The notes under the pieces are model-generated. The model was not told the DNA's origin. It made no database searches and saw only the letters and a program-made list of their open reading frames with translations. Shown piece by piece: positions 7,069-14,911 of a stretch of DNA of 56,267 nt (the stretch's first letter is position 1; every line of letters begins with the position of its first letter). Where the stretch lies: the NCBI GenBank assembly GCA_021801525.1, contig JAJYXW010000029.1:1-56267 (forward strand), read 5' to 3'. Source of the stretch: Actinomycetes bacterium. GTDB lineage: Bacteria > Actinomycetota > Acidimicrobiia > Acidimicrobiales > JAJYXR01. The translations under genes were made by a program, and so were the position numbers.

Positions 7069-10000
7069 TCATGCCGCAGCTCGTGACCCGGCACCGGCGG
7101 CGCGAAGGGCTGGCATCACCACGGGTGCTACCAGCTCTCCGCCAAGGGCGGTCACGTGGACGCCCTCGGCCCAGCGGGCCACGACTCCCCCGACCACGAG
7201 AGACCAGTGCCCGCCCGGATCGAGGAGGGCGTTCAGGTCGAGAAAGCTCACAACTCCAGGGTAGAGACGCGGGAGCACGCTCAGGAGGCTGTTGATCTCG
7301 TCCACGCGGATCGGGTTCGTCTCGGGGAACAGCCCGGCAGCGGGATCCCCTCCGAGCTGGTAATAAGGGGCGGACAGCAGCACGACCCGGGCTCCGCCGC
7401 TCGAAGCAATACCGATCGCCTGCTCCAAAGAGGCGGCGAGCAGGGAATCGAAGGCGGCCTTCCCGACATGAGACCACCTGCCGCCCACCTGGCGGTCTAC
7501 GGCCTCCCAGCGGCCGATGAGCAAGGCCACCACGTCGGGGTGCTGCGACGCGACGTCCGCTCGCCATATCGCGGGCCATCGCCTGCAAAGAGGCGTTGCG
7601 GGGTAGGTGACGCCCGAGTTGACGATGGCCCCCGTGGCAAGGACTCCGCAACCGAGGACACCGTCGTCCTCCACCCTCGACCCGTACGAAGCCCCCACCT
7701 CCGCAAGCCCGGTGCCAAGAGTGAGAGCGACGGAGTCCCCCATCACGGCTACTTCGAGCGTCCCCCCGGACTTCACGCCGGAACCCGAGCTCGCCGAGGT
7801 GACACCAGGCGGAGGTGAGAGGCCGCCGGCAGCCTCGGGCAGGCTGAGGCTCGGTGCCGCGAGCACCTTGGGCACGGGCAGGACGGGCGGGAGCGCTGCC
7901 CAGCGGGCCTTCTGGCCCACGTCGAGGCCGGCCAGTGGATCGGTGACCTTGCGAACCCGGCCGTTGCCGCCATCGGCGATGTAGAGGTTTCCGCGGGGTC
8001 CCAGCGCCACCCCGGTCGGCTGGTCGAGCACTGCACGGCGCGGTACGCCACCGCCGCTGGCGTACCCGAGCGCCCCGGTGCCTGCGACCGTGACGCCCGC
8101 CACGGTCGCCGCAACGCGTCCCCCGTGAGCGACGAGCACCTGGACGCGGTTGGCGTCCTTGTCCGCGACGAAGAGGTCCCCGGTGCTCCCGACCGCCACC
8201 CCCCAGGGAAACGCCAGCGGTGTGGCCGTGCCCGGGCCGGCAACGGTCGCAACCCTGCCGGTTCGCAGGTCGACTGCCTGCACGCGGTTCGCGAGCATGT
8301 CGGCTATGTAGAGCACGTGGCCGTCAGGGGAGACCGCCACGCCCGTCGGGTCGTCGAGGCTCCCCCGCTTCGCAAGAGCGCCGCCTCCGGGGCAACCCGC
8401 CACGTTGCCTGCGACGGTGGAGATCCTCCCCGTCGCCAAGTCGACTGCCAGCACGAGGTTGCTGCCGCTGTCCGCTATGTAGAGCACGTGGCCGTCAGGG
8501 GAGACCGCCACGCCCGTCGGGTCGTCGAGGTTCGCCCGGCTGGCCAGACCGGAGCCTCCGGAGCAACCCGCCACACCGTTGCCCGCGACGGTGTGGATCC
8601 TCCCCGTGGCGAGGTCGACCGCCATCACCCTCTGACCGAGCTCGTCTGCGACGTAGAGGGTGTGGCCACGAGGAGACAGGGCGACGCCGGCGGGAGCTTG
8701 GAGGCGCGCCCGCTTCGCAAGGTCGCCACCTCCTGCGTAGCCCGCCACCCCGCCCCCTGCGACGGTGGAGATCCTGCCGTTGGCCAGGTCCACCGAGCGC
8801 ACGCGCCCGTTGCCGGTGTCCGCGACGTAGAGCGTGCCGCCTGGCGATACTGCCACGGAGGAAGGGACGGCGAGCTGGGCCCTGGTCGCCGGACCCCCGT
8901 CGCCGGAGAAATCGATGCTGCCGTTGCCAGCCACGGTGCTCACCATCCCCGTGACGAGGTCGACGGAACGAAGGCGTAGGTTGCCAGTATCGGCGACGAG
9001 CAGCCGGACCGGCGGGGACGAAGAGCTGCGCACGGCCGGGGCCGGGTTGCCAGGTACAAGAGCGAGCCCAGTCGGGTCGTCGAACGCAGCGAGGGTCGCC
9101 GGACCCCCCTCGCCGGAGTAGCCGAGCACCCCCGTCCCGGCAAGGGTGGTGATGATCCCCGTCGAGAGGTCCACGGCGCGCACTGCGCCGTTGTCGTGAT
9201 CGGCGATGTAGAGGAACCCGCCGCCAAGCGCGAGGCCTGCCGGAAAGGAGAGCCTCGCGTGCCTGGCAGGCCCCCCGTTGCCCGAATAGCCTGCCAGCCC
9301 GTCACCGGCGACCGTGGTGATGATCCCCGTAGCGAGGTCCACCGCGCGCACGACACTGTTGTCCGTGTCGGCTATGTAGAGAGTGCCTGCGGAGACAGCC
9401 ACTGCCTCGGGGAACGAGAGCGAGGCGCTGGTCGCAGGACCCCCGTCGCCCGAATAGCCGTGGGAGCCGTTGCCGGCGACCGTGGTGATGATCCCCGTAG
9501 CGAGGTCCACGGCGCGCACCTGGTTGCCGAGGGTGTCGGCGATGTAAAGAGTGTGGCCCCCAGGCGAGAGCGCCACGCCGTCTGGCGATCCGAGCGAGGC
9601 ATCCACGGCCGGACCCCCGTCGCCCGAGGAGCCGACCTGGCCACCTCCGGCGACCGTGGTGATGATCCCCGTAGCGAGGTCCACCCGCTGCACCCGGTTG
9701 TTGCCGCTGTCTGCGATGTAGAGCGATGGACCGGGCCCAGCAGCCAAGCCCATCGGCATGTTCAGCTCTGCCGCTCGCGCAGGTCCTCCGTCTCCCGACC
9801 AGCCCGCCACCCCGGTCCCGGCTACCCGAGTCTCGGCACCTGTCGAAAGGCTCACCGCCCACACGATGTCGTTGGCGGAGTCCGACACGTACGCGACGCC
9901 ACCCAGCACTGCGACCCCGCTCGGACGCTGGCCGATCGACCTCGCGGGCGCGCTCGACGGCCCAGCACCACCGGCGACGGTGGAGATCCGAGCCGGCGCG

Positions 10001-10248
10001 TCCGCCGGAGGTGTGCCCGGAGCCGACCCGGAACGAGAGCCGTGGCTCGTACGGGACGAAGCGAGCACTCCGACACCGGTGCCGGCCGCAGCGAGAGCGA
10101 CTGCCAGCACCACGACGGTCAGCTTCGCCCGAGCGTCCTGCTCGGATTCGCGCCCCGGTCCGGGACCGGGTACGCATCCCGGCTCGGATCCCGGTCCGGG
10201 TACGCATACGGGTCCATCTCGATGGTGCAGGTACCGGCGAGCCCCCAC
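7069..10248 (-). CDS. NHL-repeat beta-propeller protein with C-terminal SGNH hydrolase module
   Basis: A ~1059-residue exported or membrane-anchored protein. A hydrophobic segment (LTVVVLAVALAAAGTGVGVL) follows a Pro/Gly-rich start. About twelve NHL repeats come next, each with YIADxxNxxVRAVDLATG and STVAG, forming one or two propellers. The last ~220 residues are an SGNH/GDSL esterase-type module with the nucleophile motif GDSVAL, a conserved GRWE block and a terminal EGVH. The usual catalytic Asp before the His is replaced by Glu. This module normally follows membrane acyltransferase-3 domains in actinobacteria (from memory). The start at GTG 10248 is preferred because TAGCGT lies 8 nt upstream; the longer frame to 10314 runs through an inverted repeat. 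A neighbouring protein (12476-14911) carries the same module. Confidence 0.8.
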   Translation of the reverse strand: MGARRYLHHRDGPVCVPGPGSEPGCVPGPGPGRESEQDARAKLTVVVLAVALAAAGTGVGVLASSRTSHGSRSGSAPGTPPADAPARISTVAGGAGPSSAPARSIGQRPSGVAVLGGVAYVSDSANDIVWAVSLSTGAETRVAGTGVAGWSGDGGPARAAELNMPMGLAAGPGPSLYIADSGNNRVQRVDLATGIITTVAGGGQVGSSGDGGPAVDASLGSPDGVALSPGGHTLYIADTLGNQVRAVDLATGIITTVAGNGSHGYSGDGGPATSASLSFPEAVAVSAGTLYIADTDNSVVRAVDLATGIITTVAGDGLAGYSGNGGPARHARLSFPAGLALGGGFLYIADHDNGAVRAVDLSTGIITTLAGTGVLGYSGEGGPATLAAFDDPTGLALVPGNPAPAVRSSSSPPVRLLVADTGNLRLRSVDLVTGMVSTVAGNGSIDFSGDGGPATRAQLAVPSSVAVSPGGTLYVADTGNGRVRSVDLANGRISTVAGGGVAGYAGGGDLAKRARLQAPAGVALSPRGHTLYVADELGQRVMAVDLATGRIHTVAGNGVAGCSGGSGLASRANLDDPTGVAVSPDGHVLYIADSGSNLVLAVDLATGRISTVAGNVAGCPGGGALAKRGSLDDPTGVAVSPDGHVLYIADMLANRVQAVDLRTGRVATVAGPGTATPLAFPWGVAVGSTGDLFVADKDANRVQVLVAHGGRVAATVAGVTVAGTGALGYASGGGVPRRAVLDQPTGVALGPRGNLYIADGGNGRVRKVTDPLAGLDVGQKARWAALPPVLPVPKVLAAPSLSLPEAAGGLSPPPGVTSASSGSGVKSGGTLEVAVMGDSVALTLGTGLAEVGASYGSRVEDDGVLGCGVLATGAIVNSGVTYPATPLCRRWPAIWRADVASQHPDVVALLIGRWEAVDRQVGGRWSHVGKAAFDSLLAASLEQAIGIASSGGARVVLLSAPYYQLGGDPAAGLFPETNPIRVDEINSLLSVLPRLYPGVVSFLDLNALLDPGGHWSLVVGGVVARWAEGVHVTALGGELVAPVVMPALRAAGAGSRAAA

Positions 10249-10262
10249 GCACGAGAACGCTA
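10249..10262 (-). promoter_or_regulatory. TAGCGT -10 box, leaderless start of NHL-SGNH gene
   Basis: On the minus strand TAGCGT (10262-10257) is followed by eight bases and GTG 10248. There is no Shine-Dalgarno sequence. The box overlaps the left arm of an inverted repeat (10260-10281). Confidence 0.45.
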
Positions 10263-10427
10263 GTGGCCCGTCCCGCAAATGGCGTGACGTTGGCCGCCGA
10301 GCCAGGGGCGTCATCTGGCAAGGCCGAGGACGAAGGCGTAGCTGGAGCTACGGCGAGGACGAGAACGCCGCCAGGGGCGTCATCTGGCCGGCGGAAGCCC
10401 AAGATCATTTGCGGGACGGACCACTAG
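10260..10427. repeat. 168-bp element bounded by 22-bp inverted repeats
   Basis: The arms 10260-10281 and 10406-10427 are inverted copies with one mismatch. Inside are 19-bp exact direct repeats (GCCAGGGGCGTCATCTGGC) at 10301-10319 and 10370-10388, and structured repeat copy B between them. The whole lies in the gap between two minus-strand genes. It looks like a small non-autonomous element or a folded RNA; no transposase or obvious target duplication is seen. Confidence 0.65.
10317..10400. repeat. Dispersed structured repeat, copy B
   Basis: It aligns end to end with 19-103. Its central hairpin pairs 10337-10342 (CGTAGC) with 10347-10352 (GCTACG) around a TGGA loop. The bases differ from copy A at four of six pairs while pairing is kept. 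Confidence 0.6.
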
Positions 10428-11308
10428 TGGCCTTGCCCTGGAGACCAGGCTGCAGCAGCCGACAATGCGGCTGACGCGGCGCCGGCCAGCGACGTTTCGT
10501 CCGTGTCGAGGACACGCACCTGCCCACATTCGGGCCAGATTCCCACCACCCTGCCGGGCAGCGCTCTCGGACCACGCCGCATCCCTGTGACGAGCGCCGG
10601 AAAGGCCAGCTCCACCCCCCAGGTGCCCGGCGGCAGCCCTGAGCAGACGACGAGAGCCGAGGAGTGCTCACCAACTCGCCCGGCGGTGCCATTACCGAGG
10701 CGCATGACGACGTCGGCCCTGCCCTTCAGTGCGACCCTTCGGTTGGGGGGGACGTCCCACCACTCGTAGCCGCCCATCGAGGGCACGCCGCCGATCACCT
10801 GCCAGTCGACGGCGCTCCACGCGGCGCTGGCCCACCGGGATGCCTCTGCCAGCACCACCGACTTTGCCCATGGATCGAGAGACACGTACCAGGGGCCCCA
10901 CCAGAACGCACCGGAGCCGTACGCCGGGTCCCCAATGGCCGAGCCATCCTCGACTTCGGCCAGCAGCTCCGCTACAGCGTCCGCGGGCGCCATCGGAGGC
11001 CGGCGCTTGACGGCGCGAGACAGCGCCAGGATGCCGATGGCTCGCCGCACCAGGGCGGGGTTCGGATGGAACTCGTCCTCGGTGCCGGCGCACTGGTCCG
11101 GACAGGAAAGCGCTCTTCCCAGCTTGTAGACGTCGATCACCAGCGAGGGGCCTGGCTCCGACATCCCCGGCAAAGCGGAGACCCCGGCAACGAGGCGCTC
11201 GCGGATGCGCTCGAGCTTCTCCGCGGAGATGTCGTGCGAACGGGGCTCCATGAGAACCGCCGTCACCTCCGACGCACGCGGCAGTGACACACCGATGGTC
11301 ACCCCCAT
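10424..11308 (-). CDS. Probable inactive PD-(D/E)XK paralogue partnering the RecB-like nuclease
   Basis: A 294-residue protein that looks like a degenerate copy of the preceding nuclease. By eye its VALKGRADVVM matches VTLAGTFDLVL of the neighbour, SALVVCSGLP matches the catalytic SVCIVEVKSGK, and ELAFPALVTGMRRG with GRVVGIW matches DLHFYALLETLRSG with FRVATFY. An upstream helix (AEASRWASAAWSAVDWQ) also matches. The catalytic Glu and Lys are missing and the C-terminal Cys cluster is absent, so cleavage activity is unlikely. An N-terminal CPDQC pair is present. The start ATG 11308 lies after GGAGG and overlaps the nuclease gene by 10 nt; GTG 11302 is an alternative. A structural or DNA-binding partner role is inference. 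Confidence 0.65.
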   Translation of the reverse strand: MGVTIGVSLPRASEVTAVLMEPRSHDISAEKLERIRERLVAGVSALPGMSEPGPSLVIDVYKLGRALSCPDQCAGTEDEFHPNPALVRRAIGILALSRAVKRRPPMAPADAVAELLAEVEDGSAIGDPAYGSGAFWWGPWYVSLDPWAKSVVLAEASRWASAAWSAVDWQVIGGVPSMGGYEWWDVPPNRRVALKGRADVVMRLGNGTAGRVGEHSSALVVCSGLPPGTWGVELAFPALVTGMRRGPRALPGRVVGIWPECGQVRVLDTDETSLAGAASAALSAAAAWSPGQGH

Positions 11309-12366
11309 GACGCCTCCGCGCCCGGTGAGGCTCCTAGGCCCGGGGCTTCCTCGCGAGCCGCGATGCTCTTCTGGCCCGGAGCGCAGGTGGCGAGCTCGGA
11401 GCACCACGGGCACAGCGGATTGGGTGTGCGCTCGGGCTCGGAGCCCGCAGCCAACCTGCAGAGCCGGAGAGTGCCGTCGATGACGCGGCGCACGGTAGCC
11501 GTCAAGATGTCCTCGGAGATCGCCTCTACGTCGAGATCGCCGCCCGAGGTGTAGAAGGTGGCGACGCGAAACGGTGGGGCGCCGGAGCGCAGCGTCTCGA
11601 GCAGCGCGTAGAAGTGGAGGTCGGCCCGGTGCTCGACGCGCCGCTTCCCCGACTTGACCTCCACTATGCACACTGACGCCAGCTCGGCGGCCGGGGCGCC
11701 GAGGACCAGGTCGAACGTGCCTGCCAGCGTCACCCGTCCCCCGGCGAAGGGCAACCTCACCCGATCCTGCGTGCGAGGCAGCCAGGCACCGGGCAGGCGC
11801 TGCCAGTGGCGTTCCACGATTGCGCTGTGAGCAGCTACCTCCACCGCGAGAGCGTCGCGCTCGCGGCGCGTAAGCGACGCCACGAGGGCCACCACCTCGG
11901 AATCCCTACGCTCCCCCGACACCGCCAAAGCGGCAAGCGGGCCTGCAAGAGGATCGTCACCTGCACACGAAAGCCCTGAGGTCACCTGGGCACGGAAGGC
12001 CACGTCGACGAGCGACCCGAGAGCTATCTCGCGAGTCACCGGCTGGGGGTCCGTTCGCAAGGCGAGCGTATGTGCCTCGCAAAGCAGCACGGAAGTAAGC
12101 GGCCCCTTTGCCACGCTCACCCGTGGAACGGAAGGAGGAAGCTCCGCAACCGCGTCCGCCAGCTCGTCCTCTATCCACTCGCGCAAGCCCCCGGCCAGCG
12201 CGGGGTCGACCGGCGGGCGCTCGCAACTGCGAAGGCGCTCGAGAACGCTCGCAGGAGCGCTGATGCTCGCAGGAGCGCTGACGGTCGGAGGAGCGTCAAC
12301 AGTCGGAGAAGCGTCAACAGTCGGAGAAGCGTCAGGAGCGTCGGTGATCTTCATCACCCGCATCAT
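11299..12366 (-). CDS. Cas4/AddB-like PD-(D/E)XK nuclease with Cys cluster
   Basis: A 355-residue protein of the RecB-like PD-(D/E)XK superfamily. The core has GTFDLVL (Asp of the motif), then IVEVKSGK (catalytic Glu-x-Lys), then a helix with HFYALLETLRSG corresponding to the QxxxY region. Near the C-terminus the spacing CPWCSELATC, together with an upstream Cys, matches the iron-sulfur cluster ligands of Cas4 and AddB nucleases. No helicase domain is fused and no cas, addA or recombination gene is adjacent. The N-terminal ~40 residues are a 6-residue repeat encoded by an 18-bp array, so the true start may lie downstream of ATG 12366. It overlaps its degenerate paralogue by 10 nt, implying coupled translation. 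A repair or defence role is plausible but unproven. Confidence 0.8.
   Translation of the reverse strand: MMRVMKITDAPDASPTVDASPTVDAPPTVSAPASISAPASVLERLRSCERPPVDPALAGGLREWIEDELADAVAELPPSVPRVSVAKGPLTSVLLCEAHTLALRTDPQPVTREIALGSLVDVAFRAQVTSGLSCAGDDPLAGPLAALAVSGERRDSEVVALVASLTRRERDALAVEVAAHSAIVERHWQRLPGAWLPRTQDRVRLPFAGGRVTLAGTFDLVLGAPAAELASVCIVEVKSGKRRVEHRADLHFYALLETLRSGAPPFRVATFYTSGGDLDVEAISEDILTATVRRVIDGTLRLCRLAAGSEPERTPNPLCPWCSELATCAPGQKSIAAREEAPGLGASPGAEASWG
12247..12336. repeat. 18-bp x 5 tandem array at the 5' end of the nuclease gene
   Basis: Five 18-bp units, the first pair and last pair nearly identical. On the minus strand they encode a six-residue Ala/Ser/Pro/Val repeat before the nuclease domain. 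The array could instead lie in the leader if translation starts downstream. Confidence 0.8.
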
Positions 12367-12475: not shown

Positions 12476-14911
12476 GTGAACCGACCGAAAAGCATCTCAT
12501 CGACCGCTGCCCAACCGGCGCCCTTGCTCAGACGATCTCGCGGGATTCGCTCAGGCGGGCACCTGGTGGTCTCGGCGTCGCTGCTGATGGCGGGACTGAC
12601 CAGCCTCTTCCCCCGAACCTCGATCCTCCCCCACATGTCGCCTCGGCCCTACGCTTCACCCAGCGCCGCTTCACTCCAGGGCATCTCCTGCCCCTCTGCC
12701 TCCACCTGCACGGCGGTTGGAAGCGGAGGAACCGTGCTGGGCACAACCGACGGAGGATCTGACTGGCTGGACGAGCCGTCGGGAACAAGCGCCCTGCTGC
12801 ACGCGGTCTCCTGCCCCGACGCTTCGAGCTGCTTGTCCGTGGGCAGCAGCGGCGTAGTCCTGGCCACGACCAACGGGGGGAAGACTTGGCGGGACGAAAG
12901 CTCCGGAACCGACCAGTCCCTCTGGGGGGTCGCCTGCGCGTCCACCTCCTCGTGTGTTGCGGTGGGCGACGGTGGGACGATAATCCGCAGCGACAACTTC
13001 GGTATCTCATGGGTTCCCGAGCGCTCCGGCACGACCGACCTGCTGACCGGCATCTCGTGCCCGAGCTCCACTGACTGCGTGACGGTGGGCAACGACCTCG
13101 AGGCTCTGGCAAGCAGCGACGGCGGATCGACCTGGAAAGCTGCACCTACCGGCACGTCGGCCTTCCTGGCGGCGATCTCCTGCCCGGTTGCCGGCACCTG
13201 CCTGGCAGCGGGGAACTCCATGACGGTCGACCTGACCACAGACCAGGGTGCCGCCTGGTCCCCCTTCGAAGTGACCGGCCATTCCCAGATCGCCCTCTGG
13301 GGCGTGTCCTGCCCTTCCACGACATTCTGCGTCGCCGTGGGCAGCGCCGGGACCATCGTCGTGGGTAACGTCAGCGCGCAGGGCAGTTCCGGGATCGAGC
13401 GCTCCGGCACGAGCGAGGACCTCCACGGGGTCGACTGCCCAACGGTCCTGGTCTGCTACGCGCTGGGAGCGTCGGGGACCATTCTCGCCAGCTCTGACGG
13501 CGGGAGGATCTGGACCTCCGTGGGCCATAGCCTCAACGGCGTCTCCCCGGTGAAGGTTCTAGTCACGGGAGACTCCGTGAGCATGACGCTAGGGTTCGGA
13601 CTCGCGAGCGTCGCAGGCGACTACGGAGTCCAGATCACCAACGACGCCATACTGGGCTGTGGCGTTACGGACGGAGGGCCCATTGAGGTCCAGGGCCAGG
13701 TGATACCGGCCGCATACATCGCCTCCGCTTGCAACGGCCTGCCAGGCAGCGAGCAGTGGCCGCAGATCTATGCGCAGGACGTCGCAGCTACGAACCCTGA
13801 CGTCGCCCTGTTGCTCGTAGGGCGCTGGGAAACGGTGAACCGCTACCACGACGGCCAGTGGAGCTGGCCGGGCCAGCCCGCTTACGACGCCTACTTGGAG
13901 TCCCAGCTCGAAACCGCTGTGCGAATCCTCTCAGCACGTGGAGCGCGAGTCGCCCTGCTCACTTCTCCCTATTTCGACGAGCAGCCGCCGCCGCCCGGAG
14001 GTGGAACATGGCCCGAGGACCAGCCAGCCAGGGTCCAGGCTGTCAACAGCATCATCTACCAAGTCGCCGCGCAGTTCCCCGGCACAGCTACCGTCATCGA
14101 CCTGAACGCCAAGCTCGACCCCGGAGGTGCTTACGCGAGCGTCATCGACGGCGTGACCGTTCGCACCTCCGACGGGGTGCACATAACCCTTGCAGGAGGC
14201 GTGTGGCTCGCTCCCTGGCTCCTCCCCAAGCTGGTGGCGCTCGCAGCCGGACGCCCAGGTGCCAGCAGCTACTGGGAGGAGGGTGCGGACGGAGGCGTCT
14301 ACTCCTTCGGGGACACGGGATTCTTCGGCTCCATTCCGGGACTCCCGCAAACGAGCAAGCCGGCCAGCCCGGTCGTCGGCATGGCCGCCACCCCTGATGG
14401 GGGCGGCTACTGGGAGGTGACCGCCGCAGGCGGGGTGTACGCGTTCGGGGACGCCCCCTTCGAGGGGTCGATGGCCGGCTCGCGGCTCGCCGCGCCCGTG
14501 GTGGGCATGGCCGCCACGCCTGACGGGGGCGGCTACTGGCTCGTAGGCGCCGACGGCGGGGTCTTCGCCTTCGGGGACGCCCCCTTCTACGGCTCGCTGC
14601 CCGGCCTGCCTCCACAGGCCAGACCCACCACTGCTGCCGTCGCGCTCGTACCCACACCTAACGGGGGCGGCTACTGGGAGGTGACCGCCGCAGGCGGGGT
14701 GTACGCGTTCGGGGACGCCCCCTTCGAGGGGTCGATGGCCGGCTCGCGGCTCGCCGCGCCCGTGGTGGGCATGGCCGCCACGCCTGACGGGGACGGCTAC
14801 TGGCTCGTAGGCGCCGACGGCGGGATCTTCGCCTTCGGGGACGCCCCCTTCGAGGGGTCGATGGCCGGCTCGCAGCTCGCCGCGCCCGTGGTGGGGATCA
14901 CGAGGATCTAG
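12476..14911 (+). CDS. Secreted BNR propeller-SGNH hydrolase with C-terminal FGDA repeats
   Basis: An 811-residue exported protein in three parts. After a signal-like N-terminus (VVSASLLMAGLTSLF), residues ~65-355 are seven BNR-type repeats of ~43 residues (SCPxxxxCxAVG, TTDGGxxW). Residues ~360-590 are an SGNH module with nucleophile Ser367 in TGDSVSM, a GRWE block and the catalytic pair Asp566/His569 in SDGVHIT. Residues ~595-811 are repeats of GGYWxVxADGGVFAFGDAPF type, common in Acidimicrobiia secreted proteins. Part of the tail is duplicated exactly over 130 bp (14399-14528 and 14663-14792). Unlike its homologue at 7069-10248, the catalytic residues look intact, so it could be an esterase or acyl-transferring enzyme on surface polymers. 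The substrate is unknown. Confidence 0.8.
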   Translation: MNRPKSISSTAAQPAPLLRRSRGIRSGGHLVVSASLLMAGLTSLFPRTSILPHMSPRPYASPSAASLQGISCPSASTCTAVGSGGTVLGTTDGGSDWLDEPSGTSALLHAVSCPDASSCLSVGSSGVVLATTNGGKTWRDESSGTDQSLWGVACASTSSCVAVGDGGTIIRSDNFGISWVPERSGTTDLLTGISCPSSTDCVTVGNDLEALASSDGGSTWKAAPTGTSAFLAAISCPVAGTCLAAGNSMTVDLTTDQGAAWSPFEVTGHSQIALWGVSCPSTTFCVAVGSAGTIVVGNVSAQGSSGIERSGTSEDLHGVDCPTVLVCYALGASGTILASSDGGRIWTSVGHSLNGVSPVKVLVTGDSVSMTLGFGLASVAGDYGVQITNDAILGCGVTDGGPIEVQGQVIPAAYIASACNGLPGSEQWPQIYAQDVAATNPDVALLLVGRWETVNRYHDGQWSWPGQPAYDAYLESQLETAVRILSARGARVALLTSPYFDEQPPPPGGGTWPEDQPARVQAVNSIIYQVAAQFPGTATVIDLNAKLDPGGAYASVIDGVTVRTSDGVHITLAGGVWLAPWLLPKLVALAAGRPGASSYWEEGADGGVYSFGDTGFFGSIPGLPQTSKPASPVVGMAATPDGGGYWEVTAAGGVYAFGDAPFEGSMAGSRLAAPVVGMAATPDGGGYWLVGADGGVFAFGDAPFYGSLPGLPPQARPTTAAVALVPTPNGGGYWEVTAAGGVYAFGDAPFEGSMAGSRLAAPVVGMAATPDGDGYWLVGADGGIFAFGDAPFEGSMAGSQLAAPVVGITRI
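14399..14792. repeat. Exact 130-bp duplication inside the propeller-SGNH gene
   Basis: 14399-14528 and 14663-14792 are identical as read, with a period of 264 bp (88 codons). The flanking copies of the same protein repeat have diverged, so this is a recent duplication or gene conversion. Confidence 0.85.

Follow-up and report, generated by a model that had tools for sequence, protein, structure and literature searches.

The stretch analyzed here, referred to as the window, comprises 56,267 nucleotides (nt) of contig JAJYXW010000029.1 (assembly GCA_021801525.1) from an actinomycete of the order Acidimicrobiales. It carries on its reverse strand two overlapping genes, A and B, which a preliminary description made from the letters alone had presented as a coupled Cas4/AddB-like nuclease and an apparently inactive paralogue, suggested to form an obligate heterodimer for DNA end processing or defense. 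The 355-residue product of A, with its GTFDLVL, IVEVKSGK and CPWCSELATC motifs, is present as described (Table 1). PF12705 (PDDEXK_1) is the sole Pfam family matching it (28.4 bits; Pfam cut-off, 22), and both the fold and the D...(D/E)xK motif of the PD-(D/E)XK superfamily are recognizable, along with an N-terminal cysteine and a C-terminal C-x2-C-x5-C arrangement that, as a sequence pattern, corresponds to that of Fe-S (iron-staple) nucleases and would hold a 4Fe-4S staple. No sequence relative of A was found among solved structures at E values up to 1. The N-terminus of A (window positions 12240-12330) contains a short degenerate repeat, DASPTV-DASPTV-DAPPTV followed by SAPASI-SAPASV, which AlphaFold models with low confidence.

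B had no family match in Pfam, NCBIfam, PADLOC or PHROGs, and the only match by sequence among solved structures was to a poly(ADP-ribose) glycohydrolase, with an E value of 1.6. Its homology to A emerged from profile comparison: hhalign of 100 B's against 51 A's gave 94.3% probability and an E value of 1e-7 over 248 columns, in agreement with the alignment of the two cores previously made by eye, and placed E236 and K238 of A opposite V220 and C222 of B, respectively. Neither D nor E is present at position 220 of the 100 B rows, nor K at 222; in a second set of 47 B rows the acid at 220 is found in none and K at 222 in two. The claim that the neighbor lacks the active-site Glu and Lys as well as the Cys cluster was borne out, all four cysteines being gone, with the addition that the first acid, D199, is kept (D in 38 and E in nine rows of the second set). 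The AlphaFold model of B (pLDDT 89.5) matched Dna2, AdnA, ACE1, Cas4 and AddB in structure searches, in which a further family may stand unlisted, so that the PD-(D/E)XK fold proposed for the second protein is recovered in the prediction and its catalytic (D/E)xK is absent. A new fold for B was considered and rejected, the model having the same PD-(D/E)XK fold as A.

Table 1. Features of the A-B locus (positions in the window; aa, amino acids).
Feature	Positions	Strand	Remarks
Gene A, Fe-S-type PD-(D/E)XK nuclease, predicted active, 355 aa	11299..12366	-	Open reading frame (ORF) and motifs
A D219 (GTFDLVL), first catalytic acid	11710..11712	-	D in 99/99 A rows, also where A is degraded
A E236-V-K238, E-x-K active-site motif	11653..11661	-	E236 and K238 invariant in alignment A3 (51 rows)
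A C96 (LLCEAH), putative first Fe-S ligand	12079..12081	-	Invariant in A3
A C319-x2-C322-x5-C328 (CPWCSELATC), other putative Fe-S ligands	11383..11412	-	Invariant in A3
Gene B, pseudonuclease paralogue lacking E, K and the Cys cluster, 294 aa	10424..11308	-	Other frame, same strand as A
B D199 (GRADVVM), acid kept opposite A D219	10712..10714	-	D 95 / E 5 in 100 B rows
B V220-V-C222, opposite lost E-x-K	10643..10651	-	hhalign
A/B gene overlap	11299..11308	-	10 nt with B start ATG 11308
Alternative A/B overlap, GTGA	11299..11302	-	4 nt, in-frame GTG start at 11302
GGAGG within the end of A, candidate ribosome-binding site for B	11313..11317	-	Sequence; putative

The linkage of both genes in relatives, set as a test in the preliminary description, held in every B locus with enough flank. 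Among 78 loci read in detail, a separate A lies directly upstream of B on the same strand in 66 and the two genes are fused in four, the remainder being ended by a contig edge (five) or having a stand-alone A itself as the match (three). This amounts to 70 out of 70 loci with enough upstream sequence, or 62 without doubles, since eight of the 66 unfused loci, recognized by identical scores, duplicate genomes that are already represented, which reduces the unfused loci to 58. In 39 of the 66 unfused pairs (35/58 without doubles; range -14 to +22) the closest start of B falls at -4, within A by 4 nt, although these distances are biased to short values because the nearest start was chosen. A and B share common descent and one predicted fold, and their order is fixed, A preceding B with the ends near each other or overlapping. 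Because they also occur naturally fused, in one genus (G040, G086, G176 and G150) and in the metagenome protein P0220, the idea of a heterodimer is strengthened, as far as gene structure can indicate.

In phylogenetic trees the B's form one clade (support 99) and the paired A's another (97; 99 when an outgroup was included and five long rows were removed), and for this reason the A-B pair most likely arose once. With stand-alone A's of other classes as outgroup, B and paired A's grouped together with a support of only 64; the alternatives were not rejected (approximately unbiased test, p 0.39 and 0.41), and the trees are compatible with the duplication preceding or following the split from the stand-alone A's. 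In a sample of 59 relatives, A was matched in 42, with one strong match per genome and others at E 1e-8 or weaker, and B, using the window protein as query, in six, each adjoining A; reading of the loci added divergent B's in G033 and G020. A B profile (E <= 1e-19) applied to 397 genomes of the order located B in six families, numbered here f1, f9, f20, f23, f40 and f45, to which inspection adds f33 and f36, making eight families, two of them on weaker scores. The 29 loci with titles belong to metagenome-assembled genomes (Acidimicrobiaceae, Acidimicrobiales, Actinomycetes), many with palsa or bog isolate names, and one of them, L150, is titled as Acidobacteriota. When the B profile was applied beyond the order, to a phylum sample of 396 genomes and a class sample of 296, all matches were weak (E 1e-7 or weaker). 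Of six loci from other classes, five encode A-type proteins with no B found adjoining, and the sixth (L200) showed no A-profile match and a weak B-profile match of 17.7 bits. The genome of the window contains a second, partial A-like fragment (G000:C8, 8331-8687; L076), a 131-aa frame in which the CxxCx5C stretch is kept and the remainder of the protein is not seen in frame.

The condition of the active site was followed in 99 A rows (35 stand-alone and 64 paired; 107 before identical rows were removed) at aligned positions 219, 236 and 238 and at the four cysteines, after dropping L075 and L076, which are not orthologous, identical rows, and the second copies L077, L078, L081, L089, L091 and L092. 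The D, the D-x-K and the four cysteines were kept in 35 of 35 stand-alone A's, defined as those without a B beside them by profile, which is a weak criterion for B's of the f20/f33 type. Among the paired A's, 21 of 64 retain D and (D/E)-x-K, 20 of them with four cysteines and one with three, and another three retain E-x-K without the C-terminal cysteines (L160 and L161, which are near-copies, and L166). A further 36, all unfused, lack the acid at 236, K238 or both, and every one of them has gaps at the three C-terminal Cys positions. The remaining four are the fusions, of which L040 and L093 read S-x-H. Degraded A's thus number 38 of 64 as aligned, and 40 as grouped in trees. Seven B's from f20, f33 and f36 are without E-x-K yet have Cys clusters (L070_B reads D-x-R; L121 is incomplete). 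The "active plus dead" arrangement previously proposed consequently stands for some lineages, the window included, and fails in 38 of the 64 paired loci, where A as aligned is degraded too; because of this, cutting is unlikely to be the whole function of the pair, judging from the residues present.

On a tree of 60 paired and six stand-alone rows, from which four long paired rows and the motif columns were excluded, the degraded label requires three changes, at least two of them forced by well-supported branches (bootstrap 5-95% range, 3-5), and we infer that these changes are losses rather than gains. What had not been anticipated is that, as aligned, paired A's of at least two separate branches are themselves without the Lys, the acid at 236 or both of these, and without the C-terminal cysteines, the genes being retained. 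In degraded pairs, nonsynonymous to synonymous substitution ratios (dN/dS, NG86) ranged over 0.12-0.43 in A and over 0.18-0.40 in B, on the basis of 12 comparisons that partly have a locus in common (leaving out the saturated L099-L105 value for A and counting L160-L161 as degraded for their cysteines); four comparisons of active pairs gave 0.19-0.42. Both genes are under purifying selection, degraded pairs included. The loss of catalytic residues and the high divergence could suggest that B is just a decaying duplicate without function, but this is hardly credible with B dN/dS values of 0.18-0.41, a frame that stays open and linked to A across several families, and conserved B motifs; a pseudogene was rejected on the dN/dS values. 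Isoelectric points (pI), only indicative as they derive from trimmed and frame-extended rows, have a median of 8.85 in degraded A's versus 6.2-6.5, and of 8.77 in the B family.

We favor, with a probability of roughly 0.6, the interpretation that A and B are tandem copies within a Cas4/AddB-type nuclease family that form a predicted heterodimer without helicase, in which binding or capping has been selected and cutting kept in some lineages. A homodimer of a stand-alone nuclease would have given rise, through tandem duplication, to the A-B heterodimer. In the window pair A would likely trim nucleic-acid ends and B hold or position the strand, while the retained groove could bind DNA ends or single strands as the dead nuclease domain of RecC does. 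Since catalytic residues appear to have been lost separately while both genes were retained, binding would be the common denominator, with binding or capping as the family-wide selected function and cutting by A kept only in some lineages, such as that of the window. That B is physically bound to A, as RecC is to its active partner, is suggested by the gene overlap and the fusions. A more specific version can be offered only tentatively: a helicase-free nucleic-acid clamp derived from a duplicated Fe-S nuclease and selected for gripping DNA ends or strands, in which one and then both subunits shed cluster and catalysis in separate lineages, the end point being a single-chain dead "double nuclease".

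In some known PD-(D/E)XK enzymes the Lys is replaced, and it could be argued on this precedent that A is a metal-dependent nuclease everywhere, using a substituted Lys in the seemingly dead lineages, with B as an allosteric or folding subunit and end processing throughout. The presence of D219 in all A rows would agree with this, as would the fact that 18 of the 36 unfused degraded A's still have an acidic residue at 236 and differ only in the Lys (D-x-T and similar); nevertheless, the other 18 carry G, R, T, S, A or N at 236 and the cysteine gaps extend to all 36, which makes it a rather unlikely explanation. Those 18 acids also weigh against selection for binding in a dead A, as do several other observations. 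The "dead" status of degraded A's depends on aligned residues; two of the 36 (L041 and L164) hold the Lys only; insertions make the motif of the fusions L101 and L103 unsure, their aligned readings being D-x-K and E-x-K; and in alignment A4, which combined the fusion P0220 with A's and B's, the half of the fusion corresponding to B received the A rows. Lys occurs at 222 without the acid in the two B's mentioned above, the B of the window is acidic (pI 5.87), and in the 59-genome sample B was found in only eight of the 42 genomes with an A match. Finally, the difference in retention of catalysis between stand-alone and paired A's, already subject to the weak definition of the former, has no independent statistical weight because it is a single phylogenetic contrast.

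The nearest ways of working to that proposed for A-B, by analogy, are those of the RecC nuclease domain and the Ssd1 pseudonucleases. In RecBCD the inactivated nuclease domain of RecC forms a hoop for single-stranded DNA, and RecB/RecC resemble A/B in combining homologous active and inactivated PD-(D/E)XK domains in one machine (PMC1185551). Those domains, however, belong to a large helicase complex, whereas A and B are free proteins of 300-350 aa, and A, the active half, is itself degraded in many lineages. AdnA/AdnB, AddA/AddB and RecBCD all have a motor, and A/B (355 and 294 aa) have neither a helicase domain nor a helicase among the scanned neighbors, which sets them apart from these systems. 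Cas4 shares with A/B the Fe-S PD-(D/E)XK exonuclease fold and, in Cas4/Csa1, a pair of paralogues for which joint action as a complex has been proposed; solo-Cas4 shows mostly vertical inheritance and purifying selection, and a dead Cas4-like protein serves as nucleocapsid protein of the archaeal virus TTV1, the fold being used without catalysis (PMC5704561). In contrast to Cas4, A is longer, with an extra N-terminal helical part, B is predicted to be inactive and no cas gene was found nearby; A had no Cas4 match in Pfam, and that to PADLOC Cas4a2 reached 12 bits (E 0.036). ACE1 is an Argonaute-associated Cas4-family protein (9iab, 9iac), and no Argonaute gene is present among the window neighbors scanned. 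In the Dis3L2/Ssd1 pseudonucleases, nuclease activity was lost repeatedly and an older nuclease-independent role kept, although these are eukaryotic RNA-binding proteins of the unrelated RNase II fold (PMC8097288). No paper on the A-B pair was found by title or start of abstract, in a literature coverage that leaves out most subscription papers. RecB-RecC, the familiar active/dead nuclease pair, is an end state inside a large motor; here a minimal two-gene form exists within one bacterial order, as a graded series: a stand-alone enzyme of the active type, an active enzyme with a dead partner that has Cys, the same with a partner lacking Cys, a pair whose active member lacks Cys, a pair degraded in both members, and finally a fusion of two degraded members. 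Because the order holds this series in two-gene form, a general question on non-cutting nucleases becomes testable, i.e. what Fe-S PD-(D/E)XK nucleases offer once unable to cut, and whether the Fe-S staple is there for cutting or for binding.

The 20 ORFs of the window scanned with Pfam are mostly housekeeping: clpC, methylmalonyl-CoA mutase, biotin carboxylase, sugar-nucleotide and glycosyltransferase genes, ftsH and NHL/SGNH proteins. There is no helicase-nuclease or cas gene among them, consistent with the earlier remark that no helicase, cas or known defense gene is adjacent. PADLOC, run on 10 of the 20, matched only ClpC, to the AAA-type models PDC-M37B and DolB, which we read as general AAA similarity. 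The position of the pair is largely conserved within families; a clpC-like gene is also upstream of A in the family relative G001, and in f23 a typA/bipA gene, identified by eye, follows A-B on the same strand in 12 of 13 long-flank loci (exception, G341, L144), 7-40 nt behind B where its end was resolved (8 of 12). The f23 loci with typA (among L129-L138, L148 and L041) have degraded pairs. The possibility of a stand-alone anti-phage or plasmid defense nuclease with a regulatory dead subunit is in line with the weak PADLOC scores of A to DruK (21 bits, E 3e-5) and to Cas4a2. It is made quite unlikely by scanned neighbors that include neither cas nor Druantia genes (DruE helicase or any other Dru gene), by the conserved A-B-typA order in f23, by clade-wise inheritance, by a single strong A match per genome in the 59-genome sample and by the lack of catalytic residues in some lineages. 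The defense role initially considered is thus not supported, a defense island was rejected given the mostly housekeeping neighbors scanned, and A-B most probably belongs to the chromosomal housekeeping genes rather than to mobile defense modules. The location of typA behind the f23 pair might reflect a link to ribosome assembly or stress. That the pair acts on RNA or ribosomes rather than DNA, its dead forms being RNA-binding pseudonucleases, is an unlikely alternative.

The pair is flanked by two large proteins (7069-10314, reverse strand; 12476-14911, forward strand) with propeller-type repeats (NHL or BNR) and an SGNH/DUF459 domain, and an NHL-like protein, by eye, is also found downstream of the pair in G001. 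A helicase-like gene of 1397-1456 aa, which we take to be of the Lhr type from its appearance, is divergent beside A in five of the 13 long-flank f23 loci (L041, L129, L130, L137 and L138); as it accompanies only these five, a general helicase link was rejected. The window genome does have a helicase-nuclease elsewhere, because two frames of 1171 and 1284 aa on the same strand of contig C59 carry PF12705, the second with UvrD_C as well. Strong PF12705 matches (>110 bits) in frames of at least 900 aa, presumably of the AdnA type, were present in six of six genomes with active pairs (f1/f45/f9) and six of seven stand-alone genomes, and in none of seven f23 and two (incomplete) f45 genomes with degraded pairs; counter to a simple rule, they are missing from two of two active-pair f20 genomes, and G086 (f40, fused and degraded) has one. 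Most of the 26 genomes checked also have another strong PF12705 match, separate from A, in frames of some 265-422 aa.
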